Shown: positions 7,790 through 63,075 of the stretch, piece after piece
How positions within the stretch are numbered: position 1 is the first letter of the stretch
Layout of the letters: each line of letters opens with the position of its first letter
NCBI RefSeq assembly: GCF_000768065.1
Contig: NZ_JRKM01000001.1
Coordinates: forward strand, 3,578,001 to 3,642,000
DNA from: Aquabacterium sp. NJ1
Lineage (GTDB): Bacteria > Pseudomonadota > Gammaproteobacteria > Burkholderiales > Burkholderiaceae_C
Reading direction: 5' to 3'
Length of the DNA stretch: 64,000 bases
The notes under the pieces: generated by a model
Databases searched by the model: none
Seen by the model: the letters and a program-made list of their open reading frames with translations, nothing else
Told to the model about the DNA's origin: nothing
Made by a program: the position numbers and the translations under genes

Positions 7790-9214
7790 GTGACCTTTTC
7801 GCAGATTTTTGCCGTCTTGCGTGCACGCTGGATGGTGGCGCTGGCGGCGTTTGCGCTGGTGTTCGGCGCGGTGGCCATCATCACCTTGCTGATGCCCAAG
7901 TCGTACACGGCCAATGCTTCCGTGATCCTGGACGTCAAGAACGCCGACCCCATCGCGGGCATGGTCTCGCCCTCGATCGCCTCGCCAGCTTACCTGATGA
8001 CTCAGGTGGACGTGATCATGTCCAACCGCGTGGCCATGAAGGTGGTGCGCACGCTTCGCCTCAATGAGAACCCGGACATGCGGGCCAAGTGGATGGAGTC
8101 CACCAAAGGCACCGGCAGCTTCGAGGGCTGGCTGGCCAATGTGCTGCGCAGCAACCTGGAAGCCCGCCCCTCGCGTGGCTCCAACGTCATCTATGTGAGT
8201 TACCAGGCGGCCGACCCTGGTTTTGCCTCCGCCATTGCCAACGCCTTTGTGCAGGCTTATCTGGACACCACCCTGGAACTGCGCACCAGCCCGGCCAAAC
8301 AGTCCAAAGACTTCTTCGAAGCGAACATCCGCACGCTGCGTGCAGCGCTGGAAAAGGCCCAGTCTCGGCTGTCGGCCTACCAGCAGAGCCAGGGCATCCT
8401 GGTGACCGATGCGCGCATAGACGTGGAGACCGCGCGCCTCAATGAACTGTCGTCGCAGCTGGTGATAATGCAGTCCGCCGCGGCTGATTCAGGCAGCCGC
8501 CAGGCCGCAGCCAATGCGCAAGGCGACCGTTCGCCCGATGTGATGGCCAGCCCGCTGGTGGCTTCGCTCAAGGCGGATCTGGTTCGCCAGCAGACCTCGC
8601 TGGAGCAACTCACCACACGCCTGGGTGAAGAACACCCGCAGGTGGTGGAGCTGAAAACCGGCATCGCCGAAACCGCACGCAAGCTGGACGCAGAGATCAA
8701 GCGCGTGACTTCGAGCGTGGGCGTGGGCAATGCGGTCAATGTGTCGCGCATGAACCAGGTGCGCGCCGCCCTGGACGAGCAGCGCGCCAAGGTCATGCGC
8801 ATGAAGGCCGTGCGCGACGAGGCGGCCATCATGGAGCGTGATGTGGACAACGCCCAGCGCGCCTATGACGGTGTGCTGGCCCGCATGAACAACAGCAATC
8901 TGGAAAGCCAGGCCAACCAGGCCAACGTCAGTGCGCTGGAAAACGCGACGCCGCCCTCCTTGCCGTCCAGCCCGCGGATCTTCCTGAACCTGGCGATGGG
9001 GCTCATGGGCGCTGCCGCAGTGGCGCTGGCGCTGGTCTTGTTGATCGAACGCCTCGATCGTCGCCTGCGTACCGTGGGTGAGGTCGAGCAGCTGCTGCAG
9101 CACGGCGTGATCGGCGCCATTCCCTCCTTCAAGAAGCGCAGGCCCAGTGCGGACGTGTCACAGCGCTTCCAGCTGGAGAGCGCACCTCTTCCTGCACTGC
9201 CCAACAAGGCTTGA
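7790..9214 (+). CDS. GumC/EpsF-type chain-length co-polymerase, set A
   Basis: Wzz/GumC-family inner-membrane protein (474 aa) that controls polymer length in Wzx/Wzy pathways and partners a cytoplasmic kinase. It has an N-terminal cytoplasmic stub, a membrane span at about residues 16-36, a long coiled-coil-rich periplasmic domain and a proline-rich segment. A second span follows (about 405-430), then a short tail without kinase motifs. The GTG at 7790, with CGGAG eight bases upstream, is preferred because it gives MTFSQIF, aligning with MTFKQFM and MTFEHLF in the two paralogs at 45706-47133 and 61621-63075. It is followed directly by the kinase, exosortase and EpsI genes. Confidence 0.92.
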   Translation: MTFSQIFAVLRARWMVALAAFALVFGAVAIITLLMPKSYTANASVILDVKNADPIAGMVSPSIASPAYLMTQVDVIMSNRVAMKVVRTLRLNENPDMRAKWMESTKGTGSFEGWLANVLRSNLEARPSRGSNVIYVSYQAADPGFASAIANAFVQAYLDTTLELRTSPAKQSKDFFEANIRTLRAALEKAQSRLSAYQQSQGILVTDARIDVETARLNELSSQLVIMQSAAADSGSRQAAANAQGDRSPDVMASPLVASLKADLVRQQTSLEQLTTRLGEEHPQVVELKTGIAETARKLDAEIKRVTSSVGVGNAVNVSRMNQVRAALDEQRAKVMRMKAVRDEAAIMERDVDNAQRAYDGVLARMNNSNLESQANQANVSALENATPPSLPSSPRIFLNLAMGLMGAAAVALALVLLIERLDRRLRTVGEVEQLLQHGVIGAIPSFKKRRPSADVSQRFQLESAPLPALPNKA

Positions 9215-9221
9215 GCTTGCC

Positions 9222-10100
9222 ATGAGTTATCAGCACAACACGGCACAGGCCGCTGGCATGAATGAGTCGCCCGCATCGCTGGGTGACATCCTGACGCGGA
9301 CAAAAGGCCTGAGCGCCGAGCAGGTGGAGCGCGCGCTGGACTATCAACGCGAACACGGCGTGCGCTTTGGTGAAGCCGCGGTGGCCTTGGGCTTCGCCAA
9401 GCCGGACGACGTGATCTGGGCTTTGTCCCAGCAGTTTCACTACCCCTACTTGCCGACCGAGCATCGCCATTTCAATGAAGAGCTCGTGGTGGCCAACGAC
9501 CCCTTCTGCGAAGAAGTGGAGGCTTTCCGCGATCTGCGCTCTCAGCTGGTGCTGGGCGTGCTGGCCGAGTCGGATACGCGCCGTGCATTGGCCATCACCA
9601 GTGCGGACTCGGGCGACGGCAAGACCTTCGTGTCGGCCAACCTGGCCGTGGCCTTCAGCCAGTTGCCGGGCCGCACCTTGCTGATCGATGCCAACCTGAG
9701 GCAGCCTCGTCTGCACAAGGTGTTCGGCGTGGAGGCCGGTACAGGCCTGACCGCCCTGCTGGCGGGGCGAGCCGAAGCCAATGTGATCAAGCCCGCCGCG
9801 CACCTGCCCAACTTGTACCTGATGCCCGCAGGCGTCATCGCGCCCAACCCGACAGAGCTGTTGCAACGCGCCGCCTTCAGCCTGCTGCTGCGCGAGTTGC
9901 TGAGCAAGTTCGACCATGTGCTGGTTGACACCCCGCCGCATGCAGCGGGTTCGGATGCGCGCATCATCTCCGTGCATTGTGGTGCAGCCTTGCTGGTGGG
10001 CCGTCGCCATGCCACGCGCATGCCCGGCATGCAGAGCCTGGTCAAGCTGCTCAACAAGAGCCAGGTCAAGGTGGCCGGCATCCTGGTCAACGAGTTCTGA
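9222..10100 (+). CDS. EpsG-type chain-length determinant kinase/ATPase, set A
   Basis: Cytoplasmic partner of the preceding co-polymerase (292 aa). Residues 18-76 form a small helical domain resembling the MshEN/GspE N-terminal fold (SLGDIL...LSAEQVERALDYQ). Residues 120-292 are a P-loop domain of the bacterial tyrosine kinase/ParA type, with Walker A SADSGDGKT (127-135), Walker A' LLIDANLR (153-160) and Walker B HVLVDTPP. The Walker A' has Asn where the two paralogs have Asp. There is no C-terminal tyrosine cluster; the protein ends in VNEF. ATG 9222, seven bases after the upstream stop, is preferred over upstream in-frame starts that would overlap gumC. EpsG proteins of exosortase-linked EPS clusters have this architecture. 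Confidence 0.9.
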   Translation: MSYQHNTAQAAGMNESPASLGDILTRTKGLSAEQVERALDYQREHGVRFGEAAVALGFAKPDDVIWALSQQFHYPYLPTEHRHFNEELVVANDPFCEEVEAFRDLRSQLVLGVLAESDTRRALAITSADSGDGKTFVSANLAVAFSQLPGRTLLIDANLRQPRLHKVFGVEAGTGLTALLAGRAEANVIKPAAHLPNLYLMPAGVIAPNPTELLQRAAFSLLLRELLSKFDHVLVDTPPHAAGSDARIISVHCGAALLVGRRHATRMPGMQSLVKLLNKSQVKVAGILVNEF

Positions 10101-10107
10101 GGTGCGC

Positions 10108-11016
10108 ATGGCGAGTTCCTTGAATCAGCCGGCCATGGCGGCACCCGCCGCATCCTGGTTGCCCATCTCGGGTGACGTGGCCTGGCTGTCGCTGGGCCTT
10201 TTTGCGATGTTCGTGCCCACCTTGTTCGAACTGTTTCAGAACAACGATGCCGGCTTGTGGAACAAGGGTGAGCACAGCCATGGCCCCATCATGCTGACGC
10301 TGGCCATGTGGTTGCTGGTGACACGTTGGCGCACCTTCGTCGAGCAGTCCAGCTCGCCGCTGAAAGGCCACTGGCTGGCCTGGCCCTGTTATGTCATCGG
10401 CGCCGCGCTGTATGTGTCCGGCCGCGCGTTGGGCATCATCTACTTCGAGGTGGGCGCCTTCATCCCCATGCTGGCGGGCCTGGTGTTGATGTCGGGTGGG
10501 CTGCCCTTGTTGAACCAGCTCAAGTTCCCGGTCTTCTTCTGCATCTTCATGGTGCCCTTGCCGGGCTTTCTGCTGGACCCCATCAGCCACTTCATCAAGC
10601 TGCGCATTTCCATCTCGGTCTCCGAGTTGCTGTGGGCATTCGGTTATCCCATCTCGCACACGGGCGTGGTGCTCAACATCGGGCCCTATCAATTGCTGGT
10701 GGCCGACGCGTGTGCAGGCATGCGCACCTTGTTCATGCTCGAAGCCATGGGCATCTTCTACCTCAACGTGATCAAGCACAGCTCATGGCTGCGCAATCTG
10801 GGCCTGGCCATGTTGATCGTGCCCATCTCCTTCACGGCCAACATGATCCGGGTGATCGTACTGACGCTGATCACCTACCACCTGGGTGATGAAGCAGGGC
10901 AGGGCTTTCTGCACGGCTTTGCCGGCATCGTGCTGTTTGCCAGCGCCATGCTGCTGTTGATGGGCATTGACCGCATGCTGCGCTGGCTGTCGACCCGAAC
11001 AGGGGCCAGCACATGA
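10108..11016 (+). CDS. exosortase (probable B-type), set A
   Basis: Polytopic membrane transpeptidase-like protein (302 aa, about eight spans) of the exosortase/EpsH family, which cleaves and probably anchors proteins with C-terminal sorting tails. The proposed catalytic triad is present: C202 in VADACAGM, R248 in ANMIRV, H269 in GQGFLHGFAG. The N-terminal EHSHGPIMLTLAMWL and central PLPGFLLDPIS segments are also family signatures. It starts seven bases after the kinase gene and overlaps the EpsI-like gene by ATGA. The type B assignment rests on the pairing with a separate EpsI and on similarity to its two paralogs here, and is less sure than the family. No sorting-tail substrate is encoded in the window. 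Confidence 0.93.
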   Translation: MASSLNQPAMAAPAASWLPISGDVAWLSLGLFAMFVPTLFELFQNNDAGLWNKGEHSHGPIMLTLAMWLLVTRWRTFVEQSSSPLKGHWLAWPCYVIGAALYVSGRALGIIYFEVGAFIPMLAGLVLMSGGLPLLNQLKFPVFFCIFMVPLPGFLLDPISHFIKLRISISVSELLWAFGYPISHTGVVLNIGPYQLLVADACAGMRTLFMLEAMGIFYLNVIKHSSWLRNLGLAMLIVPISFTANMIRVIVLTLITYHLGDEAGQGFLHGFAGIVLFASAMLLLMGIDRMLRWLSTRTGAST

Positions 11017-11729
11017 GCGCCCGATACCTCTTGCCGAGGCGCCTGAGCCTGGTGGCCATCGGGTTGACGCTGTCCATCATGCTGGGGTCCGTGGCGCTCG
11101 CCGAGATCTTCAAGCCCAACAAGTTCTGGGCGGAACACCTGGGTGAGCCGCACTACGCGCAGATCGTCCCCAGGGCATTTGGCGACTGGGTCGAGCTGCC
11201 CACCGCCGGCCGTGTGGTGGTGGACCCGGTGCAGGCAGAAAACCTGGCGCGCATCTACACCGAGACGCTGGCCCGCACCTACGTGAACAAACGCACTGGG
11301 CGCGTGTTGATGCTGTCGATCGCTTATGGGCGGGATCAGTCCACCGACACGCAGTTGCACACGCCGGAGCAGTGCTACCCCTCACAGGGGTTTCGCGTCA
11401 TTGAAGAGACGGATGAAGCGCTGCATTCGCCCTACGGCGATCTCAAGGCTGTGCGCATGGTCACGCGCCTGGGCGAGCGCCCTGAGCCCTTGACCTTCTT
11501 CATCCGCGTGGGGGACAGTGTCGTGCGTGGCTCCAGGGAGCGCAACCTCGCCCGCCTGCGCATGGCCGTGCAGGGCTACCTCGTGGACGGCATGCTGCTG
11601 CGGGTCTCCGAGATCTCCTTCCACAACGAGCAGTCCTTTGCCTTGCAAACGCAATTCATCGATGATCTGCTGCGCGCGGTCAGGCCGGATGACCGCAGCA
11701 AGCTCATCGGCACCGTGGCGTCGCGTTGA
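11013..11729 (+). CDS. epsI: EpsI family exosortase-associated protein, set A
   Basis: Exported protein (238 aa) with one N-terminal hydrophobic segment (residues 10-30), probably a membrane anchor placing the rest in the periplasm. The body matches the EpsI family: RTYVNKRTGRVLMLSIAYG, then TPEQCYPSQGF with the conserved cysteine. The same [EQ]xCYxxQGF pattern recurs in both paralogs in the window. The molecular role is unknown, but EpsI is encoded beside, or fused to, exosortases in EPS loci. Its ATG overlaps the exosortase stop, so the two are translationally coupled. Confidence 0.9.
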   Translation: MSARYLLPRRLSLVAIGLTLSIMLGSVALAEIFKPNKFWAEHLGEPHYAQIVPRAFGDWVELPTAGRVVVDPVQAENLARIYTETLARTYVNKRTGRVLMLSIAYGRDQSTDTQLHTPEQCYPSQGFRVIEETDEALHSPYGDLKAVRMVTRLGERPEPLTFFIRVGDSVVRGSRERNLARLRMAVQGYLVDGMLLRVSEISFHNEQSFALQTQFIDDLLRAVRPDDRSKLIGTVASR

Positions 11730-11748
11730 GATCGGGCAAGGGGACGAG

Positions 11749-12906: not shown

Positions 12907-13928
12907 GTTCGCTCCGCATCCTGTACTTGGGAACGCAAAGTGGCACCTGCCTGGACCGTGCCCGTGCTTACCGTCGTCTGGGCCACCACGTGGAGCATGT
13001 GGACCCTCGTCGGCTCTTGCCTGCAACGGCCTGGACAGACCGCGTGACCTGGCGGCTGGGCGGGCACCTGCTGGCCCCCTGGCTCAAGCCCAGGCTGCAA
13101 GGCCTGCTGTCTGACTTGCCTCGATTCGATCTGTGCCATGTGGACTGTGGCGAGTGGGTGACGCCCGATGTGGTGGCCATGCTTCGTCAACGATCGGATG
13201 CCGTGATCAGCTACTGCATTGACGACCCGACCGGGCCCCGCGATGGGCGGCGCTTCAAGGCCTACCGCCAGGCGGCTTCGGCTTACGACCTGCTGGTGGT
13301 CATGCGGCAGGCCAATGTGCTTGAGGCCAACGCCTTGGGCGCGCGCCGTGTCCTGCGGGTGTTCATGTCGGCGGACGAGGTGTCGCATGCCCCCCGCCCG
13401 CTGGACGAAACAGACCGTACCAGATGGTGCAGCGACGTGCTCTTTCTGGGCTCGTGGATGCCCGAGCGCGGTCCCTTCCTCAAGGGGCTGATCGAGCGCG
13501 GTGTGCCCTTGAGCATCCGCGGCGCCCATTGGCACAAAGCCCCGGAATGGCCGCTGCTCCAGCCCTTCTGGAAAGGCGGTGCCATTGGGGGCGACGACTA
13601 TGCCCGTGCCATTCAATGTGCCAAGGTGAACCTGGGCCTGCTGTCCAAAGGCAACCGGGACTTGCACACCACGCGCTCCATGGAGGTGCCCGCGGTAGGG
13701 GGCGTGCTGTGCGCGGAGCGAACCAGCGAGCACGAGGCCTTGTACACGAGCGGCCATGAGGCAGCCTTCTGGAGCTCGGTTGACGAATGCGCCCGCCAGT
13801 GCCACGAGCTTTTGGGCAATGAGGCACGCAGGCAGGCGATGGCCCAGGCCGCCCGACAAAGGCTGCGCCGCAACGGCAACCTCAATGAACAAGTGCTGCA
13901 GCGTATTCTGGACGAGGCCGCATCATGA
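12903..13928 (+). CDS. CgeB-like glycosyltransferase
   Basis: Protein of 341 aa whose C-terminal part resembles the Glyco_trans_1_2/CgeB group. It shows NLGLLSKGNRDLHTTRSMEV, then PAVGGVLCAERTSEHEALY, where the family has a conserved proline-glycine-rich loop followed by an acidic stretch. The N-terminal half has a Rossmann-like start (LRILYLGTQSGTCLDRARAY). CgeB-type proteins are GT-B enzymes of poorly defined specificity. The start is TTG 12903, overlapping the previous stop as TTGA, and no better ATG exists near the fold start. It is overlapped in turn by the next gene (ATGA), so it belongs to the set A operon. I infer it adds a repeat-unit sugar. Confidence 0.75.
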   Translation: MSSLRILYLGTQSGTCLDRARAYRRLGHHVEHVDPRRLLPATAWTDRVTWRLGGHLLAPWLKPRLQGLLSDLPRFDLCHVDCGEWVTPDVVAMLRQRSDAVISYCIDDPTGPRDGRRFKAYRQAASAYDLLVVMRQANVLEANALGARRVLRVFMSADEVSHAPRPLDETDRTRWCSDVLFLGSWMPERGPFLKGLIERGVPLSIRGAHWHKAPEWPLLQPFWKGGAIGGDDYARAIQCAKVNLGLLSKGNRDLHTTRSMEVPAVGGVLCAERTSEHEALYTSGHEAAFWSSVDECARQCHELLGNEARRQAMAQAARQRLRRNGNLNEQVLQRILDEAAS

Positions 13929-15598
13929 GCGAAACCGTGCCGAAGACCAGGCCCATGTCCTCTCTGGTCTATGCCCTGATCTGGGCCATCGCCCTCTTGG
14001 GTGGCGCCGTGCAGATCTATCTGGATGCCGGCTATGACAACGTGTTGTCGGTAGCCTGCGTGGTGTCGGCCACGCTGATCTGCCTCGGCTACCTGCGTCG
14101 ATCCGGGTGCATGCACGACGCGCCTGTTTCTTCGTTTGCAATCCTGGGCTTTCTGATCACGACCCTGCTGGGCGCGCTGCTGGCCAAGACCCTGGAGGGC
14201 GCACCCATCAGCGCCGATCTCAAGACACCCGTGATGACCTTCGGGGTCCTGTCGGGCGCCTTGCTGGGCATCATGGCGCTGCACTGGCTCTACCGGCATC
14301 TGCAATCCATCGTGAACTGGCGCAATGCGGTCGCCTCACATGTGCTGGCACCGGCCGGCTTGTACCGCGCACCGCCGCCTGGCCAGCTGTGGGCCATGGC
14401 CCTGTTCGGGCTCTATGCCTTGCTGATCAGCCGTGGCGTGGCATTCGGTGACGTGAGTGGCAAGTTCATTTCCGGCTTCACCTACCTGGCCTGGTTGCCT
14501 TTCCTCGTGCCCATCTTCAAGGCCCGCGGTGAGCCGGCCTATCAGAACCTGGGGCTTTACTGGGTCTACCTTGGTGTGTATGCCACCGTGCTGGCCTTGG
14601 CTGGCCTGGCGCTCAATGCCCGCGTGATCATTTTCAGCGGAGTCATGGTCGTCATGCTGTTGGCGCTGTTCGAAACCTTGCGCGGGCGTTTCCAGGTGGG
14701 GCGCTGGACGTGGTTGAAGGCGATCGTGGCCCTGTGCCTGGTCGGTGGTGGCGTTTCCGTGGGGGACGACCTGGCCACGGCCATGGTCATCGTGCGCCAG
14801 AAGACCGAAACGCTCTCGCCCAAGCAGAAGATCAAGGAGACCTACGAGACCTTCATGGACCGCAACGCGATCGCCTTGTACCGTGACCAGAAGGAAGCCG
14901 AACGGCTGGCCGTCACCTACGACGAAATCTATGTGCGCAACGCCATCCTGGCCCGCTTCACCGAGACCAAGTTCCACGACAACGCACTGAACTGCGCAAC
15001 TCACTACAGCGAGTCTGATCGGGCTGATCTGGCGCAGGCCACGCTGGACAAGGTCTACACGATTCTGCCCACCCCGTTGATGAAGGTGATCGACCCCAAG
15101 CTCGACAAGGACAAGCTGGCATTTTCCTTCGGGGACTACCTCTGCAACATCAAGGACGGGGTGACGCTGGGCGGCTACCGGACGGGCTCCATCTTTGCGC
15201 ACGCCTACGCTTTGTTCGACGATGTGGCCTGGCTGGTGCTGGCGGGCATGTTCCTGCTGAAGTTCTTCACGCTGGACCTCTACTGCGCCAGGCGCGAGGA
15301 CGGCGTCTACATCGTGTCTCCCGTGCTGATGCTGACCATCTGGTTCAACTTCATCAGCTCGTATGCCGGTGATTCGCTGGTGCAGTATCTGGACTCGCTC
15401 ACGCGCATGGTGGTGCAGCAGATCAGCCTGTATCTCCTGCTGTGCTTCCTGCTGCACCACTTCGTGGCCTTGTGGGCCCCTGTTCCTGTTTCGGATCACG
15501 TGGTCACACGGCGATCACCCGCTGCTTGGCGCAAGGTGATGCAGCAAGGTCTGGCGCGTGTCAAGGCGTTCAGGCGGCCACTCTGGGGGCGTTCGTGA
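13925..15598 (+). CDS. polytopic membrane protein, Wzy polymerase candidate of set A
   Basis: Membrane protein of 557 aa with about ten predicted spans. The first block covers residues 10-285. A hydrophilic, charged insertion of about 130 residues (290-425, rich in Lys/Glu/Asp) follows, then a final block at 430-520. Topology, size and position between glycosyltransferases and the flippase suit an O-antigen-polymerase-like (Wzy) enzyme that joins repeat units in the periplasm. I see no sequence motif that proves it; Wzy proteins are poorly conserved. The large loop is longer than in the two other Wzy candidates here (39211-40485 and 58403-59689). ATG overlaps the previous stop; its stop overlaps the flippase GTG. 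Confidence 0.6.
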   Translation: MSETVPKTRPMSSLVYALIWAIALLGGAVQIYLDAGYDNVLSVACVVSATLICLGYLRRSGCMHDAPVSSFAILGFLITTLLGALLAKTLEGAPISADLKTPVMTFGVLSGALLGIMALHWLYRHLQSIVNWRNAVASHVLAPAGLYRAPPPGQLWAMALFGLYALLISRGVAFGDVSGKFISGFTYLAWLPFLVPIFKARGEPAYQNLGLYWVYLGVYATVLALAGLALNARVIIFSGVMVVMLLALFETLRGRFQVGRWTWLKAIVALCLVGGGVSVGDDLATAMVIVRQKTETLSPKQKIKETYETFMDRNAIALYRDQKEAERLAVTYDEIYVRNAILARFTETKFHDNALNCATHYSESDRADLAQATLDKVYTILPTPLMKVIDPKLDKDKLAFSFGDYLCNIKDGVTLGGYRTGSIFAHAYALFDDVAWLVLAGMFLLKFFTLDLYCARREDGVYIVSPVLMLTIWFNFISSYAGDSLVQYLDSLTRMVVQQISLYLLLCFLLHHFVALWAPVPVSDHVVTRRSPAAWRKVMQQGLARVKAFRRPLWGRS

Positions 15599-17091
15599 GC
15601 GCCACGCCCGCACCATGGCAGCGCCTGCTTTCCGGTTCGACGGCAGCGGTAGCCCGCGTGGGTGTGGTCTTCCTCATGCAGGTGGGCCTGGTGCCGCTCT
15701 ACCTCAAGCACTGGAGCGCCACCCAGTTCGGCTACTGGATGTTCCTGCAGTCGGCCATCGTCATCATCACCGTGCCGGATGCCGGGTTGCAAGCCTTTGT
15801 GGAGGTGGCTTATATCCGTCAAAGTGGTCGTTCATCGCGCAGGCTGGGCATGTTCCTGTCGATGGGGGCGAGCACGGGCCTGATGCTGTCGCTGTGCCAG
15901 ATGTTGATCTGCGCCGGCTTGCACTACAGCGGCGCCTTGCACTGGCTGCTGCACCCGCCCGCAGCCGAGTCCCAATGGGTGGACCAGGTGGGCAGCGCGC
16001 TGGTGGTGACCGCCTTGTCGTGGCCGCTGGCGAGCTCGGTGGCTGGCTCGATGGGCCGGGCCAGTGTGGTGCAGGGTTCGGTCGCGCCGCAGATCTGGTG
16101 GTCCATCCTCACGCTCTTGAGTGGCAGCGCGGCCTCGGCCTGGTGTGCCAGCCAGGGGGGCGATTTGCTGCAGGCGGCCCAGGCCAGTGCGGCCGCCTCG
16201 GCCATCTCCGGGCTCAGCTGCATCCTGTACTTCCGGGCTCGGTTTGCGCGCCAGGGTGTGCGGCTGAGGTTGTTGCCGCGCCTGGTGCGCCTGGCGGTGG
16301 TCAAGCAGGCCGCGGGCTTGATGCTCAAGCTCCTGTTCGAAACCGTTCGCCAGCACAGCCTCAGGCTGATTGCGCCGCAGGTGGTGACGGTCGCCTCCAT
16401 GGCCAGCCTGTCTGTGCACCGCACGCTGGTGGGCGCCATGCAGCAGGCTTTTGGGGTGATCTCCGCGCCGCTGCTGCCCGAGTATGTGCGGGCGCAAGGC
16501 CACGTGGGCTTCTCGGCAGAGTCGGCCCGCTTGATGCGGCTGCAGTGGCGCTTCTTCACCGGGGTGGTCTTGCCAGGCGGGCTGCTGCTGTTCATCGTGG
16601 GGCCTCGCCTGTTCGAGGTCTGGACCCACGGCAAGATCGTGTTCGACAGCCTGGTGTTCTCCATCCTGTTGCTGGCGGTGGCCTCGTTTGCCTTGTTTGC
16701 CCCGTTCACGCAGTACCTGCAGGCGGCCAACAAGGTCCGCGAACAGGCCTTTGTGGCCGGCTTCGTGCTGGTCGCCAGCGTGTTGCTGGTGCTGGGCCTG
16801 GGCTGGGCCTTTGATGCCCGTGGCCTGGCTGCGGCCTTCTTGCTGATCGAGCTTTTGCAGGGCGGCCTGTGCCTGCGCCTGTGCTGGCAATGTTGTCGCG
16901 GCCCCTTGTTCGCGGCCGTGCTGCGCCAGTTCGGCCTGATCGGCGTGGTGTCGGCCCTGATGCTGGTCTTGCCCAATGCCTTGCCTGAGCCTGCCCGCCA
17001 GGTGGTGTGCCTCGTCGGTGCGTTGGCTGCCGTGCTCCTGTCTTTCCAGTCTCAGCTTCGTTCATTCGGTTTATGGCCTGCCAGTTATTGA
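15595..17091 (+). CDS. Wzx-type polysaccharide flippase, set A
   Basis: MOP-superfamily membrane transporter of 498 aa with about 12-14 hydrophobic segments, expected to flip the undecaprenyl-linked repeat unit to the periplasm. The N-terminal region (VARVGVVFLMQVGLVPLYLK and then FGYWMFLQSA) is typical of Wzx/RfbX proteins. GTG 15595 overlaps the stop of the polymerase candidate (GTGA); upstream in-frame starts would lie deep within that gene. It shows little evident similarity to the other two flippases in the window (42831-44060, 55699-57144), as expected if each serves a different repeat unit. The 3' end overlaps the following gene by 19 bases. Confidence 0.82.
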   Translation: MSATPAPWQRLLSGSTAAVARVGVVFLMQVGLVPLYLKHWSATQFGYWMFLQSAIVIITVPDAGLQAFVEVAYIRQSGRSSRRLGMFLSMGASTGLMLSLCQMLICAGLHYSGALHWLLHPPAAESQWVDQVGSALVVTALSWPLASSVAGSMGRASVVQGSVAPQIWWSILTLLSGSAASAWCASQGGDLLQAAQASAAASAISGLSCILYFRARFARQGVRLRLLPRLVRLAVVKQAAGLMLKLLFETVRQHSLRLIAPQVVTVASMASLSVHRTLVGAMQQAFGVISAPLLPEYVRAQGHVGFSAESARLMRLQWRFFTGVVLPGGLLLFIVGPRLFEVWTHGKIVFDSLVFSILLLAVASFALFAPFTQYLQAANKVREQAFVAGFVLVASVLLVLGLGWAFDARGLAAAFLLIELLQGGLCLRLCWQCCRGPLFAAVLRQFGLIGVVSALMLVLPNALPEPARQVVCLVGALAAVLLSFQSQLRSFGLWPASY

Positions 17092-30651: not shown

Positions 30652-30663
30652 ATCGGAGTTTTC

Positions 30664-51595: not shown

Positions 51596-51778
51596 GTGAG
51601 CTGCTTACATCCATCTGGTTGACGTCAGCCAGTTTGCTGTTCAACCAATTACGCCGTGGGTTCGCCTTTAGGGTATGTGCTCATGGCTGGAGTTGCCGGT
51701 TTGCGGAACTAAAGTGTTTTGGCTGGCACTATCTCAGGCTGGGCGCACCTGCCCGGCCAACCGTATCTTTTGTCACTC

Positions 51779-55629: not shown

Positions 55630-55698
55630 CTCCGGTCACCTGGATGGGGGGCCCTTTTTGCTCGCTGATTTCGTCGTTGTGCGAGCGGCAAGTCTTGC

Positions 55699-57144
55699 TT
55701 ACGAGGCCACGACTGTTCGCCTGGTGCGCCAACGGTTTGCGCCCATCGACGCGGTCAGTGCCATCGCTGACAGTGAGGCGATCAGTGTTCCGTCTAGCCA
55801 GGGTTTGATGTCGCCGTGTACGAGCGCGCGGGCCTGCAGATAGGCCAGCCATCCCAGACCAAAGATGCCGATAGGCACCAGTGTTCTGAATGCCAGCTCC
55901 TGTGCCATGCTTGGTGCCAGCCTCTTGCTCATGTGCCGTGCCGTTGGTGCGACCACGATCAGGCCAGCCAGCGCATAGCCCAGCACGGCCTTTGTGTCGC
56001 CGAGAGCGGTGATGGGGCTCAGTGCTGCGGTCAGGATCAGACACAGGACTGCTCGGCCGATTGCCAGGCTGGATACGAAGAGGCTAGGCTCGAACACCTG
56101 AATCAGGATGGTGGCAAGGTAGAGGCTCGTGCGGACGATCAGGGCCAGGCACAGCCAGGACAACAGCTGATGCAGGGTGGCCCATTTGCTGCCCAGTACC
56201 AAGGGAATCATCTGGTAAGACGACATACCAAGGCCAAAGAACAGGGTCGTCGTGGTCATGCTGAGGATCGCGAGGTGGCGCTGGTACACGCCGAACAGCG
56301 CGGCCTTGTCGTCGCGGTCATGAGAGAACAGGCCCCAGGCAGCATCCAGGCCGGGAGATGCCAGGAAGGTGAACAGCGTCTGGGCGATCTTGTTGGCGTA
56401 AGACAGGCTGCCCGCGACGGACAGACCCATGAGCTGGGCAACAACGAGCTCAAGCCCTTTGCTTTCGAGAAAGTCTGCTACTTTGGGTTGCCCGTTAACG
56501 ATCATCAGCCCGCGTAAGCCTCGCATCTGCGCCCAGGACAGGTTTAGCGCGATGTGGGTGTGTTGTCCTCGCAGAATGAAGTAGCTCAGGAGCTGGTAGG
56601 TCAGTGTGAGCGCTACCAGTGCATGTCCACCGCCGTGCAGTGCGGCGACGATGATGCCCACCGTGCCGCCCCCAAGGGTTGCCAGTGCTGTTCGCCGTGC
56701 CAGTGCTTTGTAGTCCATCGACTTGCGGTACAGGCCCATTGGCACTGCATTGATGGCAATCAGGAGGGGGCACGGCGCGAGTTCGAAGGCATACCAAGCC
56801 ATGGACAGATCGCTCGGTTGCACGGTTGCTCGAAGGAAAAGGCCCAGCAGCAGGGTGCCCACCATGCAGAACATGCCCAGCGCCAGCGCAATGCATTTCA
56901 ATGAGCCCATTTGCTCTGGCTTGTCGTCGGGCAACTGGATGACGGCCTGCGCCACGGTTTGCTCAACGAACATCTCGGCCAGCACCACGAAGGTCGAGGC
57001 CACGGCATAGCTGCCGAATTCGTGCGGATCAAGCAGGTAGCCCAGTGCCATGTAAACCAGCGCCGACGCTCCTTTGCCCACCCAGGCCTGTGCGTAGGCC
57101 CAGGTGATGGCTGCGCGCGAGTTGACTGTCTTTTTCTTCTGCAC
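55699..57144 (-). CDS. Wzx-type polysaccharide flippase, set C
   Basis: MOP-family exporter of 481 aa with about 14 spans. ITWAYAQAWVGKGASALVYM and YLLDPHEFGSYAVASTFVVL at the N-terminus, with the LMGLSVAGSLSYANKIAQTL region in the middle, match the WzxC/polysaccharide synthase C-type subgroup. It should flip the set C repeat unit. The start is GTG 57144, with no strong ribosome-binding site. It is the last gene of the leftward set C unit, 21 bases after the GT4 gene. Confidence 0.85.
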   Translation of the reverse strand: MQKKKTVNSRAAITWAYAQAWVGKGASALVYMALGYLLDPHEFGSYAVASTFVVLAEMFVEQTVAQAVIQLPDDKPEQMGSLKCIALALGMFCMVGTLLLGLFLRATVQPSDLSMAWYAFELAPCPLLIAINAVPMGLYRKSMDYKALARRTALATLGGGTVGIIVAALHGGGHALVALTLTYQLLSYFILRGQHTHIALNLSWAQMRGLRGLMIVNGQPKVADFLESKGLELVVAQLMGLSVAGSLSYANKIAQTLFTFLASPGLDAAWGLFSHDRDDKAALFGVYQRHLAILSMTTTTLFFGLGMSSYQMIPLVLGSKWATLHQLLSWLCLALIVRTSLYLATILIQVFEPSLFVSSLAIGRAVLCLILTAALSPITALGDTKAVLGYALAGLIVVAPTARHMSKRLAPSMAQELAFRTLVPIGIFGLGWLAYLQARALVHGDIKPWLDGTLIASLSAMALTASMGANRWRTRRTVVAS

Positions 57145-57165
57145 GATGCGCGAGAGTTGAGTGCG

Positions 57166-58419
57166 TCAGCGGGGGGCGCCGACTGCGTCCATGGCCTGCT
57201 TGACTCTGGCTAGCCAGGCGGATCCATCCAACTGTGCTTTGGCTGCCTCGTAGGCCTGGGTCTGCAAGTGGCTGGCCAGCGCGGGAGTCGAGCTAAGGCG
57301 AGCCAGTTGATTTGCGAAGTCCCTCGCTGATTGCGCCAGCAGCAGCTGTTGACCGTTGTCCACATCAAGCCCTTCTGCCCCGATTGCCGTTGTGACCACA
57401 GCCTTGCCGTGGGCCAGTGCTTCGGCTACCTTGATCTTCACGCCACCGCCACTGAGCAGGGGAGCGATGATGACGTGGCATTGCCCGTAGAAGTCATCCA
57501 GGGATTCGACGAAGCCGAGAAAGCGCACATTGGCAGGGGCGGCAGCCACCAGGTCCGCCGGGGGGTGGCGTCCGGCCACGACGAACTCGATGGGTAGGGA
57601 TGCGGTTGCCGGTACGATCTCTTTTAGCAGGAAGTGCAGGGCTTCGACATTGGGCGCATGGCCGAAGGAGCCCAAGAAGCCAACTCGCAGGTTTGGATTA
57701 CCGAAAGCGTTGTCGTCATGACGTGCGGGCGCTCGAGAAGGTGTGCCAGGAATATCCAGCGGCAAACCCATCACGCGGGGGGATAGTTGCGGCGCATACA
57801 GGCTCAAGCCGAACCTGTCTTGGCTGCTCAAGGTCCATACCTGGCTGGCTCGTGCGTAGTGCTTGCGTTCGTACTTGATCCAACTCAACCATTGCAGCAA
57901 GGCATACAGGCGGGATAGGGGCCCATGGGTGGAGCTCAGGCGGCGGAACCACGAGACAGAGTAGGCGTCCTGCACATCCATGATGGTGTGAGGGGTAGCT
58001 TGCCCCGCTGGCAGACTCGATGGATCCGGCAGGTACTGAGCCATTTGCGGGAACTGGAAGATGACCGCTGTGGGCTGTAAGGTGCGCAAGGCCCTGTCAA
58101 GTGCATCGCGCATAGCCTGGCTGTCGAAATAGTGGGGGTGCTCGGGTCTCAGTAGGACAGATGACAGCTTGGCCTGAAGCACTTTCAGCTTGTTGATGCG
58201 CAGCTGCACCGATTCGAAATGGGCCAGGCTAAGCTGGAGTTCTGCACAAGCCTTGCGGTCCACCTCGCTGTCGTTGGAGAAGCACACCATGCCAACATCG
58301 AAGTCGAGTTGCAGCAAGCGAAGGGCCTTGCTGCAGACAGTGGCACCGCCCTGGCCGGAATTGGCCGCATATGGAAACGGCGCGACGATGAGCAGCCGGT
58401 TGTCAGCGCGGGGACTCAT
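57166..58419 (-). CDS. family 4-like glycosyltransferase
   Basis: GT-B enzyme of 417 aa. The start DNRLLIVAPFPYAANSGQGG opens the acceptor domain; IMDVQDAYSVSWFRRL follows. The donor half has LRVGFLGSFGHAPNVEALHF (about 240) and a C-terminal IIAPLLSGGGVKIKVAEALA stretch with the donor-binding glutamate seen in GT4-type enzymes. ATG 58419 overlaps the polymerase gene stop (17 bases); longer starts would overlap more. Sugar specificity unknown. Confidence 0.85.
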   Translation of the reverse strand: MSPRADNRLLIVAPFPYAANSGQGGATVCSKALRLLQLDFDVGMVCFSNDSEVDRKACAELQLSLAHFESVQLRINKLKVLQAKLSSVLLRPEHPHYFDSQAMRDALDRALRTLQPTAVIFQFPQMAQYLPDPSSLPAGQATPHTIMDVQDAYSVSWFRRLSSTHGPLSRLYALLQWLSWIKYERKHYARASQVWTLSSQDRFGLSLYAPQLSPRVMGLPLDIPGTPSRAPARHDDNAFGNPNLRVGFLGSFGHAPNVEALHFLLKEIVPATASLPIEFVVAGRHPPADLVAAAPANVRFLGFVESLDDFYGQCHVIIAPLLSGGGVKIKVAEALAHGKAVVTTAIGAEGLDVDNGQQLLLAQSARDFANQLARLSSTPALASHLQTQAYEAAKAQLDGSAWLARVKQAMDAVGAPR

Positions 58420-59689
58420 GGCTAGCGCCCTGGTAGCTGACAAGGCCGCATGCGGCGAAGATGTAGGTGAACAGGATGAGGGAATCAGCGCCAAAGAAAT
58501 AGGGCAGGAATTGTGAGCAGACAAAAAAGCCCAGAAATGGAGCGCGCTGTGAGCGGTGCTTGTAGAAGTGGCTCAGCGTGAGCCCCCAGCCGAGCAGGAA
58601 GGCCGCCCCAATGAAAAACCCCATGTCGTAGATCACACCAAGGATGGTGTTTTCCACGTGGTTGATCGACAGCGTAAAGAACACGGCGTTGGGGCCGACA
58701 GTGCCCTTTGGGAAGCCGTGCAAATAGTATTCGGGCAGCCTGTCCCAGGCCTCTTTGAACGTCTTGATGTGGCCTTGCATGGAGGGATCGTCGCCAGACA
58801 AGTTAAGCGCGAGCCAGCGCAGGACGTTGTCCGCGATGTCGGGGTTGATGGCCACGATGGTGACCACTCCGGCAACCAGGATCACCGTGCCGCCGATTCC
58901 CAATTGCCACAGTGTCTTGCTGGGAATGCGGATCGAACCGGAGAAGTAGAGCGTGAGCAAGCCCACGATGTACAGCAAGACGCTGCTTCGTGAGAAGGTA
59001 AGCAGCAGTGCCAGGAATGTCAGGCCTGTGGCGTAGGGGAGGAGCTTCTTGAGCGTGTTGCTGGTTATCGCTTGGTTGGATGTGCCAATGAGCAAGGTGT
59101 TGAGCACGAGGTTCAGCGACAGCATCAGGCCCAGGCTGTTGGGGCTGGTTGCAGGCAGGCCCATACGCATCCATACGCCACCGGAGATGTACCAGGAGTC
59201 GGCCAGTAGCACCGCGTCGTCGACGCCGACAATCAGCTTGCTGGCGATGACGCTATCAGCAAGCATCACGCCGTACAGCACGATGGCAACCACCACCGTG
59301 ATGGTATTTAGCCAGACCGCGCCATCAATGAACAAGGCCTTGTCGCGTGGCGAGGCATTGTGCAGGGCACCTGCCAGCGCCATCATGAAGAACACGGGCA
59401 GGGCGTAGAAGCGCGAGTAGTACAGGCCAGGCATGTACTGGTCTTCGACTGCGGACACGCCGATGTAGACGAAGATGGTGACGAACAGCAGGAGCACGCC
59501 CCACAGCAACCGCGAGGCACGCAGCGGGTTGGCGCGCACGATGCCCCAGATCCCGAGTGTGATGAGCAGCAGATCCCGTAACGTGGAGGTGTAGTTGGAC
59601 AGCCCCGCCAACATGAACAGCGTCTTGTTGAAGGGGCTGTAAACCGTCAGGCAGACGACCAGGAAGACCAGTATCGAGAAGGGGCTCAT
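58403..59689 (-). CDS. O-antigen polymerase-like (Wzy) protein, set C
   Basis: Polytopic membrane protein of 428 aa with about ten spans and a periplasmic loop at about residues 300-350. FLALLLTFSRSSVLLYIVGL is a typical central helix of Wzy_C-type polymerases, and the whole protein is strongly hydrophobic. It would link set C repeat units. ATG 59689 overlaps the GT2 stop (ATGA). It is similar in size to the set B polymerase (39211) and lacks the large charged loop of the set A candidate (13925). Confidence 0.78.
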   Translation of the reverse strand: MSPFSILVFLVVCLTVYSPFNKTLFMLAGLSNYTSTLRDLLLITLGIWGIVRANPLRASRLLWGVLLLFVTIFVYIGVSAVEDQYMPGLYYSRFYALPVFFMMALAGALHNASPRDKALFIDGAVWLNTITVVVAIVLYGVMLADSVIASKLIVGVDDAVLLADSWYISGGVWMRMGLPATSPNSLGLMLSLNLVLNTLLIGTSNQAITSNTLKKLLPYATGLTFLALLLTFSRSSVLLYIVGLLTLYFSGSIRIPSKTLWQLGIGGTVILVAGVVTIVAINPDIADNVLRWLALNLSGDDPSMQGHIKTFKEAWDRLPEYYLHGFPKGTVGPNAVFFTLSINHVENTILGVIYDMGFFIGAAFLLGWGLTLSHFYKHRSQRAPFLGFFVCSQFLPYFFGADSLILFTYIFAACGLVSYQGASHESPR

Positions 59690-60684
59690 GGCAGTTGGGG
59701 CTGTTGTCCGCTGAAGGCGCAGCGAAGCAGCGATTTTCCGGATTGGAGGAAGGCAGTCCCTTTTTCCTTCAGTACTGCACCTCGGTCCGCGGGCAGGCGG
59801 CGAAGGATGGCCATGGCGGAGAACACAGCCGCGCGCAGTATGAAGGTGCAACCCAGCGCACCAGCCATCAGCCGACTACGCAGCGCGCCGAAATGTTTGT
59901 TGACGTAGATGACGTAGGAGCGCGCAGTCCGTTGCAGCGCGTTTGGGCCGATCCAGACCTTGCCTGCACCCTCATAGTGGGTGATGCTAGATGCCCGCGT
60001 AAAGCACACCGACTGGCCGGCCAGGCGCAGGTTCCGGCAGTAATCAACATCCTCACAGTACATGAAGAAGCTCTCGTCCATCCCGCCGATCTGTCGCCAC
60101 AGGTGCGTCCAGGTCATCAATGCGGCGCCGGATACCCAATCCACTCTACGGTGGTCCGTGTCATAAAAGGCAGGATCGGTTTCCAGGCGGCGGAAGATCT
60201 TGGGCAACCAAGCCCATTTCTCTACACCGAACCAGGAGCAGGCGATGCGGAGTGCCGTGTGCTCATGCCCTGATGAGAACTGTAGGCGGCCGTCGCCGTA
60301 GTGGAGCCGACAGCCCACCGCGCCTACACCGGGGCGAAGCAGCTCGTCGACCATTGGGTCCAGTGAGCCCTCCACTCGGGTGTCATTGTTGAGCAGGAGC
60401 AGGATGTCGCCCTTGGCGGCCTTGGCGGCCAGGTTGTTGCCGCCTGTAAAGCCCGTGTTGATTGGGGATTCGATGTAGGTGATTCCAGACCATTCGCGCA
60501 GCAGCGCCTGGCTGCCGTCGCTGGACGCGTTGTCAACGACGATGATCTCGAAGTCGTGCTTTGAGAACGCGGTCTTGGAGACGGCATCCAAGCACTGATG
60601 TAAAAACTTGAGGCCGTTGTAATTGACGATCACAACGGAAATGAGGTGACGTCGCTCTTGTCTGGGGCGTACGTCAGAACTCAT
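59686..60684 (-). CDS. family 2 glycosyltransferase (rhamnosyltransferase-like)
   Basis: GT-A, family 2 enzyme of 332 aa. Motifs are ISVVIVNYNGLKFLHQCLDA, VVDNASSDGSQALL, and LLLLNNDTRVEGSLDPMVDE with the metal-binding NDT region. WVSGAALMTWTHLWRQIGG and FFMYCEDVDYCRNLRLAGQS are typical of the WbbL/RfbF-like group, which contains many rhamnosyltransferases. A hydrophobic stretch near residues 270-290 may attach it to the membrane. The ATG lies inside the kinase 3' end (11-base overlap). Confidence 0.88.
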   Translation of the reverse strand: MSSDVRPRQERRHLISVVIVNYNGLKFLHQCLDAVSKTAFSKHDFEIIVVDNASSDGSQALLREWSGITYIESPINTGFTGGNNLAAKAAKGDILLLLNNDTRVEGSLDPMVDELLRPGVGAVGCRLHYGDGRLQFSSGHEHTALRIACSWFGVEKWAWLPKIFRRLETDPAFYDTDHRRVDWVSGAALMTWTHLWRQIGGMDESFFMYCEDVDYCRNLRLAGQSVCFTRASSITHYEGAGKVWIGPNALQRTARSYVIYVNKHFGALRSRLMAGALGCTFILRAAVFSAMAILRRLPADRGAVLKEKGTAFLQSGKSLLRCAFSGQQPQLP

Positions 60685-61603
60685 TGATCACAGTGCCTAC
60701 GATCTTTGTCGACCCGATGCGGGCGATGTTGACCAGGTGCTGAACATCGTCCATGCGGCTGTGATTTTGCCGTGCGATCAGAATGGCAGCTCCGCACTTG
60801 GCGGCAATTACCGCACCGTCTGCGCCCAGTGACGCTGCTGGTGTATCGACGATGATATGGTCGAACTTCAGAGACAGCTCGCGGATCAGCAGGCCGAATG
60901 CGGGTCGCTCGACCAGTTCTTGTGGATTGGGCGGCGTAGTGCCCACGGGCAGCACGAACAGGCTGTGCAGTTGCTTGACGGGCTTGATGACATTGGAAGC
61001 GGCCCGGCCCGAGAGGATGGTCGACAGGCCCGAACTGGACTCCGCCAGATCGAACAGCTCGTGCTGGCGCGGTGTGCGCATGTCGGCGTCGATCAGCAGG
61101 GTGCGGCCCGACAGTTGCGAGAAGGCTGCGGCCAGGTTGGCGGCGAAGTAACTCTTGCCGTCGCCTGTATTGGGGCTGACCACCGCGATAGCGTGCTTGG
61201 AGCCGGCGGCCTCGCTGTTGAACATGCGCATGATCAGGTGGCTGCGCATACTGCGGAAGGCTTCCGCACGGGCCGAGAAGGGCTGCGTCGCCACCACCAC
61301 CTCGCTGGGCAGCGATTTGCTGGTGTCGTTGTCCTGGGAGTAGGGATAGTGGAACTGCTGAGCCAGCGCCCACATCACGTCGTCGTTGTTGGCCAAGCCC
61401 AGTGCTACGGCGGCTTCGCCGAAACGCACGCCATGCTCGCGCTGGTAGCCAAGTATCTGTTCGATTTGTTCGGGCGACAGGTTGTTGGCCTGGCTGATGA
61501 TCTCGCCGATGGAGCGTTGGTTGTCCGTCTGGGTGTCGGCGAACGACATGGTTGGCTCGCCGAGGGCAGACGCATGAAAAGTCTGTTTGGAACTGGGTTT
61601 CAT
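60674..61603 (-). CDS. EpsG-type chain-length determinant kinase/ATPase, set C
   Basis: Cytoplasmic protein of 309 aa, paralog of those at 9222 and 44815. An N-terminal extension of about 30 residues is followed by the MshEN-like domain (SIGEIISQANNLSPEQIEQI and YQREHGVRFGEAAVALG, nearly identical to set A over this stretch). The P-loop domain has Walker A SPNTGDGKS, Walker A' LLIDADMR and Walker B HIIVDTPA. There is no tyrosine cluster at the C-terminus. ATG 61603 gives a sensible N-terminus 17 bases after the co-polymerase stop; longer starts run into that gene. Confidence 0.9.
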   Translation of the reverse strand: MKPSSKQTFHASALGEPTMSFADTQTDNQRSIGEIISQANNLSPEQIEQILGYQREHGVRFGEAAVALGLANNDDVMWALAQQFHYPYSQDNDTSKSLPSEVVVATQPFSARAEAFRSMRSHLIMRMFNSEAAGSKHAIAVVSPNTGDGKSYFAANLAAAFSQLSGRTLLIDADMRTPRQHELFDLAESSSGLSTILSGRAASNVIKPVKQLHSLFVLPVGTTPPNPQELVERPAFGLLIRELSLKFDHIIVDTPAASLGADGAVIAAKCGAAILIARQNHSRMDDVQHLVNIARIGSTKIVGTVINEF

Positions 61604-61620
61604 GGCTTCAACGCTTCTTC

Positions 61621-63075
61621 TTATTTTTGTGAAACGAGGCCGCGCTCGTTCTTGATGGCAGCGGGAGACACCGAAGAGAAGTATTTGCCGAACGCAGAAC
61701 GCTCCAGACGCTTGTTGTCGTAGTTGCGCGAGTTGGGGCCGGGCATGGTGCCGAGAACGGGGATGTCTTGCAGGACGCGCAGATCGAGCACGCTGCGCAC
61801 GCGGCGGTCGCGCATTTCCACGCCCAAACAACCCAGGACGGCGAACAGGGTGGCGGGGAAGAAGGCGATCAACATGTTGAGTAGCAAGCGCGGCGAGGAA
61901 TGCTCGCTGGGCTCGGTGGCTGGGCTCAGCAGGTAGATGTTGCTCTGGCTGCTGTTGCTTTCCAGATTGACCTGGCTCAGGCGCGATTGCAGGGCGTCGT
62001 AGATGCGCTGCGCGCTGGTGACTTCCTGCTCCAGTACGGCCAGTTCTGTGCGTTGTTCTTTGAGTTTGAGCAGCTTGGTGCGTTGTTCGTCGAAGGCGGC
62101 CTGCACAACGGCCTCACGGCTTTGTGAGATGTCGTTGTTGATGGCGACGCTGTTTTGCACGCGGGCTATTTCATTGCGCATGCGGGCTTCCAGCTCGTGG
62201 ATGCTCGCCCTGGTTTCCCTCACCTGAGGGTAGTTGTCACCATAGGTGGACTCCAACTCGTGCAGTTTGCTTTGTAGACGGGAGATGTCGGACTTCAGTC
62301 CAGCGACCACGGGGTTGTTCAGCACATCGGATAGGTTGTCGCCTTTGTGCTTGGCCGCTTGGTCGCGGCTGGATGATTCCGCCAGCTGGGCGCGGGCCAG
62401 CACCAATTGGGCTCCGAGTTCGGTCAGCTTGGAGGTTTCGACGTCCATGCGCTCGTCAGTGACAACGATGCCCCGGGCCTTCTGGGCCTCAGCCAGCTTC
62501 TGCTGGGCCTTTTCAAGTTTTTCGCGTGCGATGCGCGAGCGCTCTTCGAAAAAGTCGGCGTAGCTGCGGGCCGGATCGATCTTCATCTGGATGACCGAGT
62601 CGATGTAGGACTTGGCATAGGCATTGGCCAGGGCTGCGGAGAACTTGGGATCAGCGCCCTTGTAGGTGATCTCAAGCACATTGGAGTCGCGGGACGGCTT
62701 GACGATGAGGCCCTTGCCAATGCGTTCGCCCAGCCAGGCTTCATAGTCGCCCTTGCTCTCGGTCTCATCGACCCACTTATCCCGCATGGCTTTGCTTTCC
62801 ATCAGGTGTAGGGAGCGAATCACGCGTTGCGCAACATTCGCGCTTTGAATGATGTCGGCCTGAGTGACCAAGTAGCTGCTTTGCGTCGCGACACCGAGTT
62901 GAGACAGACCGGAGACAGGGTCCGGCTTGATGTCGGCCACGACGGTCGCAGTAGCCTTGTAGGTCTTGGGCAGCACGACGCTGACGATGAGCGTCAGCAG
63001 CATGGTCGAGGCAAAGATCAGACTTGCCAGCTTCTTCCTGGCTTTGAGAATGCGAAATAAGTGTTCAAAAGTCAT
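61621..63075 (-). CDS. GumC/EpsF-type chain-length co-polymerase, set C
   Basis: Wzz/GumC-type protein of 484 aa. MTFEHLFRILKARKKLASLI leads into the first membrane span (about 17-36). A long periplasmic coiled-coil region, a TEPSEHSSPR segment and a second span (about 400-420) follow. The tail is basic and without kinase motifs. It follows the EpsD gene by about 90 bases and precedes the kinase. In related clusters an EpsE outer-membrane export gene belongs between or near these; it is not in the window. Confidence 0.92.
   Translation of the reverse strand: MTFEHLFRILKARKKLASLIFASTMLLTLIVSVVLPKTYKATATVVADIKPDPVSGLSQLGVATQSSYLVTQADIIQSANVAQRVIRSLHLMESKAMRDKWVDETESKGDYEAWLGERIGKGLIVKPSRDSNVLEITYKGADPKFSAALANAYAKSYIDSVIQMKIDPARSYADFFEERSRIAREKLEKAQQKLAEAQKARGIVVTDERMDVETSKLTELGAQLVLARAQLAESSSRDQAAKHKGDNLSDVLNNPVVAGLKSDISRLQSKLHELESTYGDNYPQVRETRASIHELEARMRNEIARVQNSVAINNDISQSREAVVQAAFDEQRTKLLKLKEQRTELAVLEQEVTSAQRIYDALQSRLSQVNLESNSSQSNIYLLSPATEPSEHSSPRLLLNMLIAFFPATLFAVLGCLGVEMRDRRVRSVLDLRVLQDIPVLGTMPGPNSRNYDNKRLERSAFGKYFSSVSPAAIKNERGLVSQK

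Follow-up and report, generated by a model that had tools for sequence, protein, structure and literature searches.

Three exosortase B gene sets of Aquabacterium sp. NJ1 as exchangeable inner-membrane modules that probably share a starter and an exit encoded elsewhere

We analyzed a 64,000-nucleotide stretch of the Aquabacterium sp. NJ1 genome (contig NZ_JRKM01000001.1, positions 3,578,001 to 3,642,000; hereafter the window), which carries three sets of exosortase-linked exopolysaccharide (EPS) genes, each encoding a co-polymerase (EpsF), a tyrosine-kinase-like protein (EpsG), an exosortase and an EpsI protein. An initial annotation of the letters had listed three copies of each, and a scan of the window with NCBIfam models recovered them in the same places: three EpsF, three EpsG-like kinases, three exosortases of the B type (XrtB) and three EpsI (Table 1). 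The model cut-offs are 422.75 bits for EpsF (TIGR03017), 275 bits for XrtB (TIGR03113), 220 bits for EpsI type B (NF045609) and 313.8 bits for EpsG (TIGR03029). EpsI2 and all three kinases fall below theirs, and the kinases, which exceed the cut-off of the broader TIGR01007 model, are referred to as EpsG-like. Chance as the source of the three-set pattern is excluded by the profile scores. The Cys/Arg/His triad, read as intact in the window exosortases by the initial annotation, is intact in all four XrtB of this genome (the three window enzymes and a fourth described below) and in 108 of 109 aligned XrtB of the genus, the remaining one having an X at the His position. Cleavage of PEP-CTERM proteins, which are present in the genome, is the predicted activity of the window exosortases. 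Identities between the paralogs within the window are 38-51 per cent for XrtB, 28-34 per cent for EpsI, 39-42 per cent for EpsF and 48-54 per cent for EpsG, and values of 28 to 54 per cent exclude recent copying.

Three Wzx flippases and three Wzy polymerase candidates had also been assigned to the window, and these assignments hold in part. Wzx2 and Wzx3 are supported by Pfam, whereas Wzx1 has no match in the NCBIfam or Pfam scans and is a putative flippase by fold: the best structural matches of its low-confidence predicted model belong to the MOP superfamily (MATE, MurJ, then WzxE; best E 1.6e-4). The Wzy2 and Wzy3 candidates match PF04932 (cut-off 31.7 bits) weakly and marginally, respectively, and the Wzy1 candidate, for which there is no NCBIfam or Pfam family match and no fold support, is proposed from its position. 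Identity is 21-25 per cent among the three Wzx and 21-24 per cent among the three Wzy candidates. Genes for sugar nucleotides are shared inside the three-set block.

Table 1. Features of the window, with their positions and the model scores or other evidence for each.
Feature	Position	Strand	Evidence
EpsF1, co-polymerase of set 1 (reading frame opens at 7697)	7790..9214	+	TIGR03017 485.8 bits, above cut-off
EpsG1, tyrosine-kinase-like, N-terminal MshEN-type stretch	9222..10100	+	TIGR03029 276.5 bits (below cut-off 313.8); NF053729 44.9 bits (cut-off 38)
XrtB1, exosortase B of set 1	10108..11016	+	TIGR03113 305.6 bits; C/R/H intact
EpsI1	11013..11729	+	NF045609 227.6 bits, above cut-off 220
Wzy1 candidate, multi-spanning membrane protein	13925..15598	+	Position only; 6 homologs among fetched loci
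Wzx1, MOP-type flippase by fold only	15595..17091	+	Low-confidence model, mean pLDDT 51
Wzy2 candidate, in low-GC stretch	39211..40485	-	PF04932 29.4 bits, below cut-off 31.7 (weak)
Wzx2	42831..44060	-	PF01943 60.2 bits
EpsI2	44093..44821	-	NF045609 189.1 bits, below cut-off 220
EpsG2	44815..45690	-	TIGR03029 264.6 bits, below cut-off 313.8
EpsF2	45706..47133	-	TIGR03017 520.5 bits, above cut-off
XrtB2, exosortase B of set 2	47130..48059	-	TIGR03113 330.5 bits, above cut-off
XrtB3, exosortase B of set 3	51719..52654	+	TIGR03113 328 bits, above cut-off
EpsI3	52623..53351	+	NF045609 256.3 bits, above cut-off
Wzx3	55699..57144	-	PF13440 112.7 bits
Wzy3 candidate	58403..59851	-	PF04932 19.9 bits, below cut-off 31.7 (marginal)
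EpsG3	60674..61561	-	TIGR03029 283.3 bits, below cut-off 313.8
EpsF3	61621..63075	-	TIGR03017 483.5 bits, above cut-off
EpsD-type peptidyl-prolyl isomerase, beside set 3; sole EpsD seen in the window	63163..63909	-	TIGR02925 137.1 bits
Decaprenylphosphoryl-arabinose-type genes ahead of set 1 (HAD-UbiA fusion transferase, DprE1-like, DprE2-like)	4106..7639	+	DprE1 and DprE2 models below own cut-offs
Fcl and Gmd (GDP-fucose), with the diverging XrtB2 and XrtB3 on either side	48073..50297	-	

The sets had been called complete, a description that does not hold, as the window contains no initiating transferase, no EpsE and no EpsL. The genome encodes four PF02563 export proteins, three PF02397 initiating transferases and one EpsL-like protein, and none of these lies in the window. 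Only one of the four export proteins, at 325 bits, exceeds the EpsE model cut-off of 262.65 and belongs to that family (the other three score 40.5 to 106 bits on this model). It is encoded at 1.44 Mb and adjoins a GGDEF-EAL protein (both at locus L078, 8957-12346), a neighbor found at all six genus EpsE loci that were read, this one included. An EpsB-like glucose phosphotransferase (TIGR03023, 500.8 bits) is located at 4.15 Mb beside the EpsL-like protein, which scores 120 bits against a model cut-off of 275. Dispersal of this kind recurs in the genus. Among 92 EpsF genes (96 listed, four below 250 bits being left out), an export protein (two second-domain rows and one 21.5-bit row being left out) lies within 20 kb of 2, an EpsL of 1 and a PF02397 transferase of 5, counted on many short contigs where neighbors can be missed. 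In all 40 genus genomes with an EpsL match, one EpsL each (40 of 46 rows, weak and partial ones being left out; G268 and G285 have none), the EpsL-like protein adjoins a PF02397 transferase. In genome G254, three EpsF coexist with two PF02397 transferases, of which one adjoins EpsL and the other is of a small kind, and with three export proteins including EpsE; G275 combines three EpsF with a total of two export proteins. In outgroups, EpsD, EpsE, EpsF, EpsG, XrtB and EpsI are contiguous in 8 of 8 loci with EpsF (10 stretches from 8 genomes, chosen by us, two of them without EpsF), so that the arrangement in this genus differs from the one-run XrtB-EPS clusters of its outgroups. Because starter, EpsE and EpsL are all encoded elsewhere, the three window sets are inner-membrane modules rather than complete pathways. 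Also outside the window, at about 0.79 Mb (locus L077, 9630-16391), the genome carries genes for an XrtA-type export protein, a co-polymerase, a kinase, an outer-membrane protein and an ATPase; despite these XrtA-type EPS genes, an exosortase search of the genome recovered no more than four enzymes, each of which scores as XrtB.

The expectation that such clusters normally carry one of each gene is borne out for XrtB. Among 399 genomes sampled from the order, 77 have XrtB at an E-value of 1e-60 or better, and 72 of the 76 other than this one, which has four, carry a single copy (three in G344 and two each in G324, G368 and G618). In a family sample of 250 genomes, 74 have XrtB above the cut-off, and six of the 70 outside the genus have more than one among the matches listed. 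Several sets per genome are, unlike in these single-XrtB genomes of the order, usual within the genus, a feature that had gone unmentioned in the initial annotation. Here 41 of 42 genomes have an exosortase match (in part to exosortases of other kinds), 35 of 42 contributed at least two XrtB to the trees, and 12 of the 33 genomes of at least 90 per cent completeness, a group formed with no contamination limit (the listed value is 9 per cent for both G279 and G280), have the XrtB of all three window sets. A single block of 52-68 kb with all three sets also occurs in G254, G259 and G267, and the orientation of set 1 relative to its neighbors is identical in G267 and G259.

To place the sets by descent, trees of XrtB, EpsF, EpsG and EpsI were computed for the genus, 39 of whose 42 genomes gave XrtB sequences of sufficient length. 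Each tree contains one clade per window set, with an extra clade for the fourth locus in the case of XrtB and EpsI. Family outgroup sequences branch between the set clades (single FastTree runs with several weak nodes), from which it follows that the sets either predate the genus or were acquired from different donors. Whether members of a set group with their partners was checked in the same 39 genomes, and agreement is closest within the kinase and co-polymerase pair: EpsF and the neighboring EpsG carry the same set label in 71 of 71 labeled pairs. For set 1, XrtB occurs in 19 genomes, EpsF in 20 and both in 19 (19 of the 20 genomes with either). Agreement is less for set 2 (XrtB in 29, EpsF in 22, both in 22; 22 of 29) and set 3 (31, 31 and 27; 27 of 35). 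The XrtB of sets 1 and 2 have an EpsF of their own label within 4 kb in 31 of 34 cases. XrtB3 does so in 1 of 10 and is often nearer a neighboring set, as expected from the EpsF3 of this window standing about 9 kb away. Partial Mantel correlations between XrtB and EpsF distances, with Gmd and Fcl distances removed and relatedness still partly present, are 0.47, 0.59 and 0.42 within sets 1, 2 and 3 (XrtB3 against EpsG3, 0.38), and 0.28, 0.39, 0.28, 0.17, 0.23 and -0.07 between different sets. The three sets are thus old paralogs that the genus shares, and the members of each set have largely been inherited together.

A comparison with two relatives, G267 and G259, in which the best match may be to a paralog if the ortholog is missing, reveals how these units are exchanged. 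Against G267, identity is 69-98 per cent for the genes from rmlD through the epimerase at 31989 and 63-96 per cent for set 2, and the flanks are conserved (Gmd 88 and EpsD 89 per cent). The stretch from the acyltransferase to Wzy2 is at most 47 per cent identical or absent (55 per cent for the glycosyltransferase at 40505), and the genes from the glycosyltransferase at 50351 to EpsF3, including XrtB3 and EpsI3, are 20-63 per cent identical or absent. Against G259 this same set 3 stretch is 52-83 per cent identical and set 2 is 20-57 per cent identical or absent. These patterns indicate that the polymer genes are replaced jointly with the co-polymerase, the kinase, the exosortase and EpsI, and the G267 pattern, combined with a GC content of 0.47-0.53 across 36-42 kb of the window, indicates that Wzy2 with its neighbors has also been replaced alone.

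Beyond the genes initially annotated, we found a fourth XrtB-EpsI pair at about 4.24 Mb with an EpsD (XrtB, TIGR03113 278.3 bits, cut-off 275; EpsI, NF045609 228.8 bits, cut-off 220), and no co-polymerase was seen at this locus. It is a four-gene unit (locus L067, 13975-17112) in which a gene for a FxDxF-type PEP-CTERM protein precedes EpsD, XrtB and EpsI, an order kept at 23 of 23 loci of the fourth XrtB group. The cargo protein (L067, 13975-14499; 174 amino acids) scores 77.3 bits on its family model (NF038126, cut-off 50), and its tail alone stays below the cut-offs of PF07589 (13.3 bits) and TIGR02595 (15.2 bits). That tail, PEPADLALTFVGLAGVGYMVRRR, reads PE-P/A-x-D where the remaining cargo pool has PEP-S-T. 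An Asp at the second position after PE-P/A occurs in 22 of the 23 fourth-group loci (Glu in G280; in G265 the reading frame with Asp is the farther of two) and in none of the 43 pool tails that were read. The fourth XrtB is thus linked to a single cargo protein whose tail differs from those of the pool. Of the 58 PEP-CTERM matches above cut-off in the genome, none falls in the window, and the 43 whose tails were read share a single class of signal, in most cases VPEPSTYALMGLGL and then an arginine-rich end. A PEP-CTERM-like reading frame lies within 2.6 kb of XrtB at 1 of 19 set 1, 5 of 32 set 2 and 4 of 31 set 3 loci, some of these being poor matches. All 74 XrtB-positive family genomes have a PEP-CTERM match, nine of them just one or two (up to 32 candidates were scored per genome, and the counts are used only as present or few). 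Across 33 genomes, cargo number follows genome size with a rho of 0.71 and XrtB number with a rho of 0.30 (p 0.09). In G066, from another genus of the family, an FxDxF PEP-CTERM protein, EpsD, XrtB and EpsI also adjoin (L224, 9398-11918), with no co-polymerase there; its XrtB groups with the fourth XrtB and its FxDxF protein has an ordinary tail. In several relatives (L074, L131, L176 and others), the fourth-group XrtB and EpsI form one fused reading frame of about 550 amino acids.

Several further features accompany the sets. The MshEN-type domain has been named for EPS biosynthesis in Methylobacillus, according to passages of PMC5013675, and on the MshEN model (NF053729, cut-off 38 bits) EpsG1 is above the cut-off, with EpsG2 (36.4 bits) and EpsG3 (34.1 bits) below it. 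At six R/L/G/L/L/Q positions per 24-residue half, chosen by us from the printed motif, EpsG1-3 retain 2-4 of 6 in each half, and Ser replaces Arg in the first half of all three; on a wider motif count they reach 10-12 of 22, and unrelated controls reach 11. Control of these kinases by cyclic di-GMP is uncertain, as the first-half Arg is absent and two of the three score below the model cut-off. The decaprenylphosphoryl-arabinose-like genes ahead of set 1 suggest that arabinose is present in a surface polymer. Set 1 is flanked by inverted copies of a ugd-containing repeat (1,318 bp, 98.4 per cent identity) at window -5513..-4196 (locus L065) and 30662-31979, across which an inversion of about 35 kb could occur. 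Two DUF1501-DUF1800 gene pairs are found near the EPS block, at window 21951-25306 and, identified by eye, at L065 11872-15455; the best match of the window pair is near set 1 in 5 of 8 relatives compared.

On balance, we consider it probable that the three sets are exchangeable inner-membrane modules, which probably make three polymers by way of a common hub whose genes lie elsewhere. Each module probably builds its own polymer, a reading of the gene sequences that agrees with the initial proposal of three distinct polymers and draws on the unrelated Wzx and Wzy complements and on the co-inheritance of the sets. As the modules have neither starter nor outer-membrane exit, a shared hub elsewhere is most likely. 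In such a scheme, EpsB, as undecaprenyl-phosphate glucose phosphotransferase, would load the first sugar onto the carrier, the glycosyltransferases of a module would complete its specific repeat, the module Wzx would flip the repeat, Wzy together with EpsF and EpsG would polymerize it, and the chain would exit via EpsE and the EpsL-like protein, each of which is present once. The XrtB-EpsI pair that travels with the module would most likely process PEP-CTERM proteins where the polymer emerges. The Wza proteins of the Escherichia coli capsule and colanic acid systems can replace each other, so a shared exit is plausible. Several observations weigh against this scheme. The sets are not strict units, since XrtB2 occurs without EpsF2 in 7 genomes, XrtB3 without EpsF3 in 4 and EpsF3 without XrtB3 in 4, and one cross-set Mantel value (0.39) is near those within sets. 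In none of the 42 genus genomes does an EpsL-like protein reach the model cut-off. The genome holds two further PF02397 transferases and three further export proteins (the XrtA-type one, one at 2.93 Mb and one of 864 amino acids at 3.74 Mb), one or more of which could serve a set, and the few EpsF genes near an export protein (2 of 92) or a transferase (5 of 92) were counted on many short contigs.

Those additional proteins, four export proteins and three transferases in all, would be needed if the sets were three fully independent pathways, each with a different export protein and starter located elsewhere. We regard this as unlikely: there is one EpsE-family export protein, the other export proteins stay below its model cut-off, the XrtA-type one sits with its own co-polymerase and kinase, the 864-residue one adjoins a protein that matches co-polymerases weakly (EpsF, 49 bits), and G275 has fewer export proteins than EpsF. 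At the other extreme, all sets could act on one composite polymer, or be expressed one at a time. The sugar-nucleotide genes shared in the block and the dispersed single hub genes would suit such a product, and the ugd repeats around set 1 could permit inversion; however, the sets are present or absent separately in different genomes, their Wzx and Wzy candidates are unrelated, set 1 keeps its orientation in G267 and G259, and we found no evidence for the switching between polymers that had been suggested. A single composite or alternating product is therefore quite improbable.

The initial annotation had asked whether each exosortase processes different cargo or monitors its own EPS pathway, and our results narrow this choice. 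We doubt that each XrtB cleaves its own PEP-CTERM class, to which we give no better prospects than to a composite product. The fourth XrtB, preceded by its FxDxF cargo gene in 23 of 23 genomes, does have a linked cargo with a tail of its own kind, and a PEP-CTERM match accompanies XrtB in every positive genome of the family, but the window has no PEP-CTERM gene, few set 1-3 loci have a PEP-CTERM-like reading frame near XrtB, the pool tails are of one class, cargo number tracks genome size and not XrtB number, and exosortase and EpsI are exchanged with the polymer block. Recent duplication or an assembly artefact, for which nothing speaks beyond the repeated functions, is refuted by the trees and practically without likelihood, as the paralogs are too divergent, each set has orthologs in other genomes of the genus and outgroups branch between the sets.

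The EpsH exosortase of the Methylobacillus-type eps (methanolan) cluster is presumably of the XrtB kind. The Eps families of that cluster are like those found here, and EpsI is directly downstream of the exosortase according to passages of PMC1569441; that cluster is one locus, whereas here there are three sets, and EpsB-EpsL and EpsE have moved away. Passages of the same paper report that disruption of epsH did not affect methanolan production, so that the exosortase probably does not gate polymer synthesis. Myxococcus xanthus likewise has three co-resident Wzx/Wzy pathways, for the polymers EPS, SPS and BPS, each with its own export protein and barrel according to the sections of PMC9601211 that treat them, whereas the window sets have neither; the word 'exosortase' does not occur in that paper. 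In the XrtA/PEP-CTERM systems of Aquincola and Zoogloea, a PEP-CTERM protein and EPS genes are needed for flocs, as set out in parts of PMC9850573, and EpsB2 is of the XrtA-associated kind, whereas the four exosortases here score as XrtB.

A division of labor among the four exosortases can be put forward tentatively, although we hold it to be rather unlikely. The fourth XrtB would be specialized by cargo, and the three window XrtB by acceptor, each joining the common PEP-CTERM pool to the polymer, or a lipid-linked intermediate, of its own module, in analogy to sortases, which pick a cell-wall nucleophile. Such acceptor specificity predicts a single pool signal and a single hub alongside several polymers, with several exosortases being swapped together with the polymer genes, and it also fits the persistence of methanolan synthesis after loss of EpsH. 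In the text of the original description (Haft 2006), the role of exosortases after cleavage and the reason for their siting among polysaccharide genes were left open. The hub arrangement poses the question of how several polymers share one starter and one exit, and a genus with several exosortases, one main and one variant cargo signal and exchangeable modules is a natural experiment on exosortase function that could help to show what these enzymes act on.

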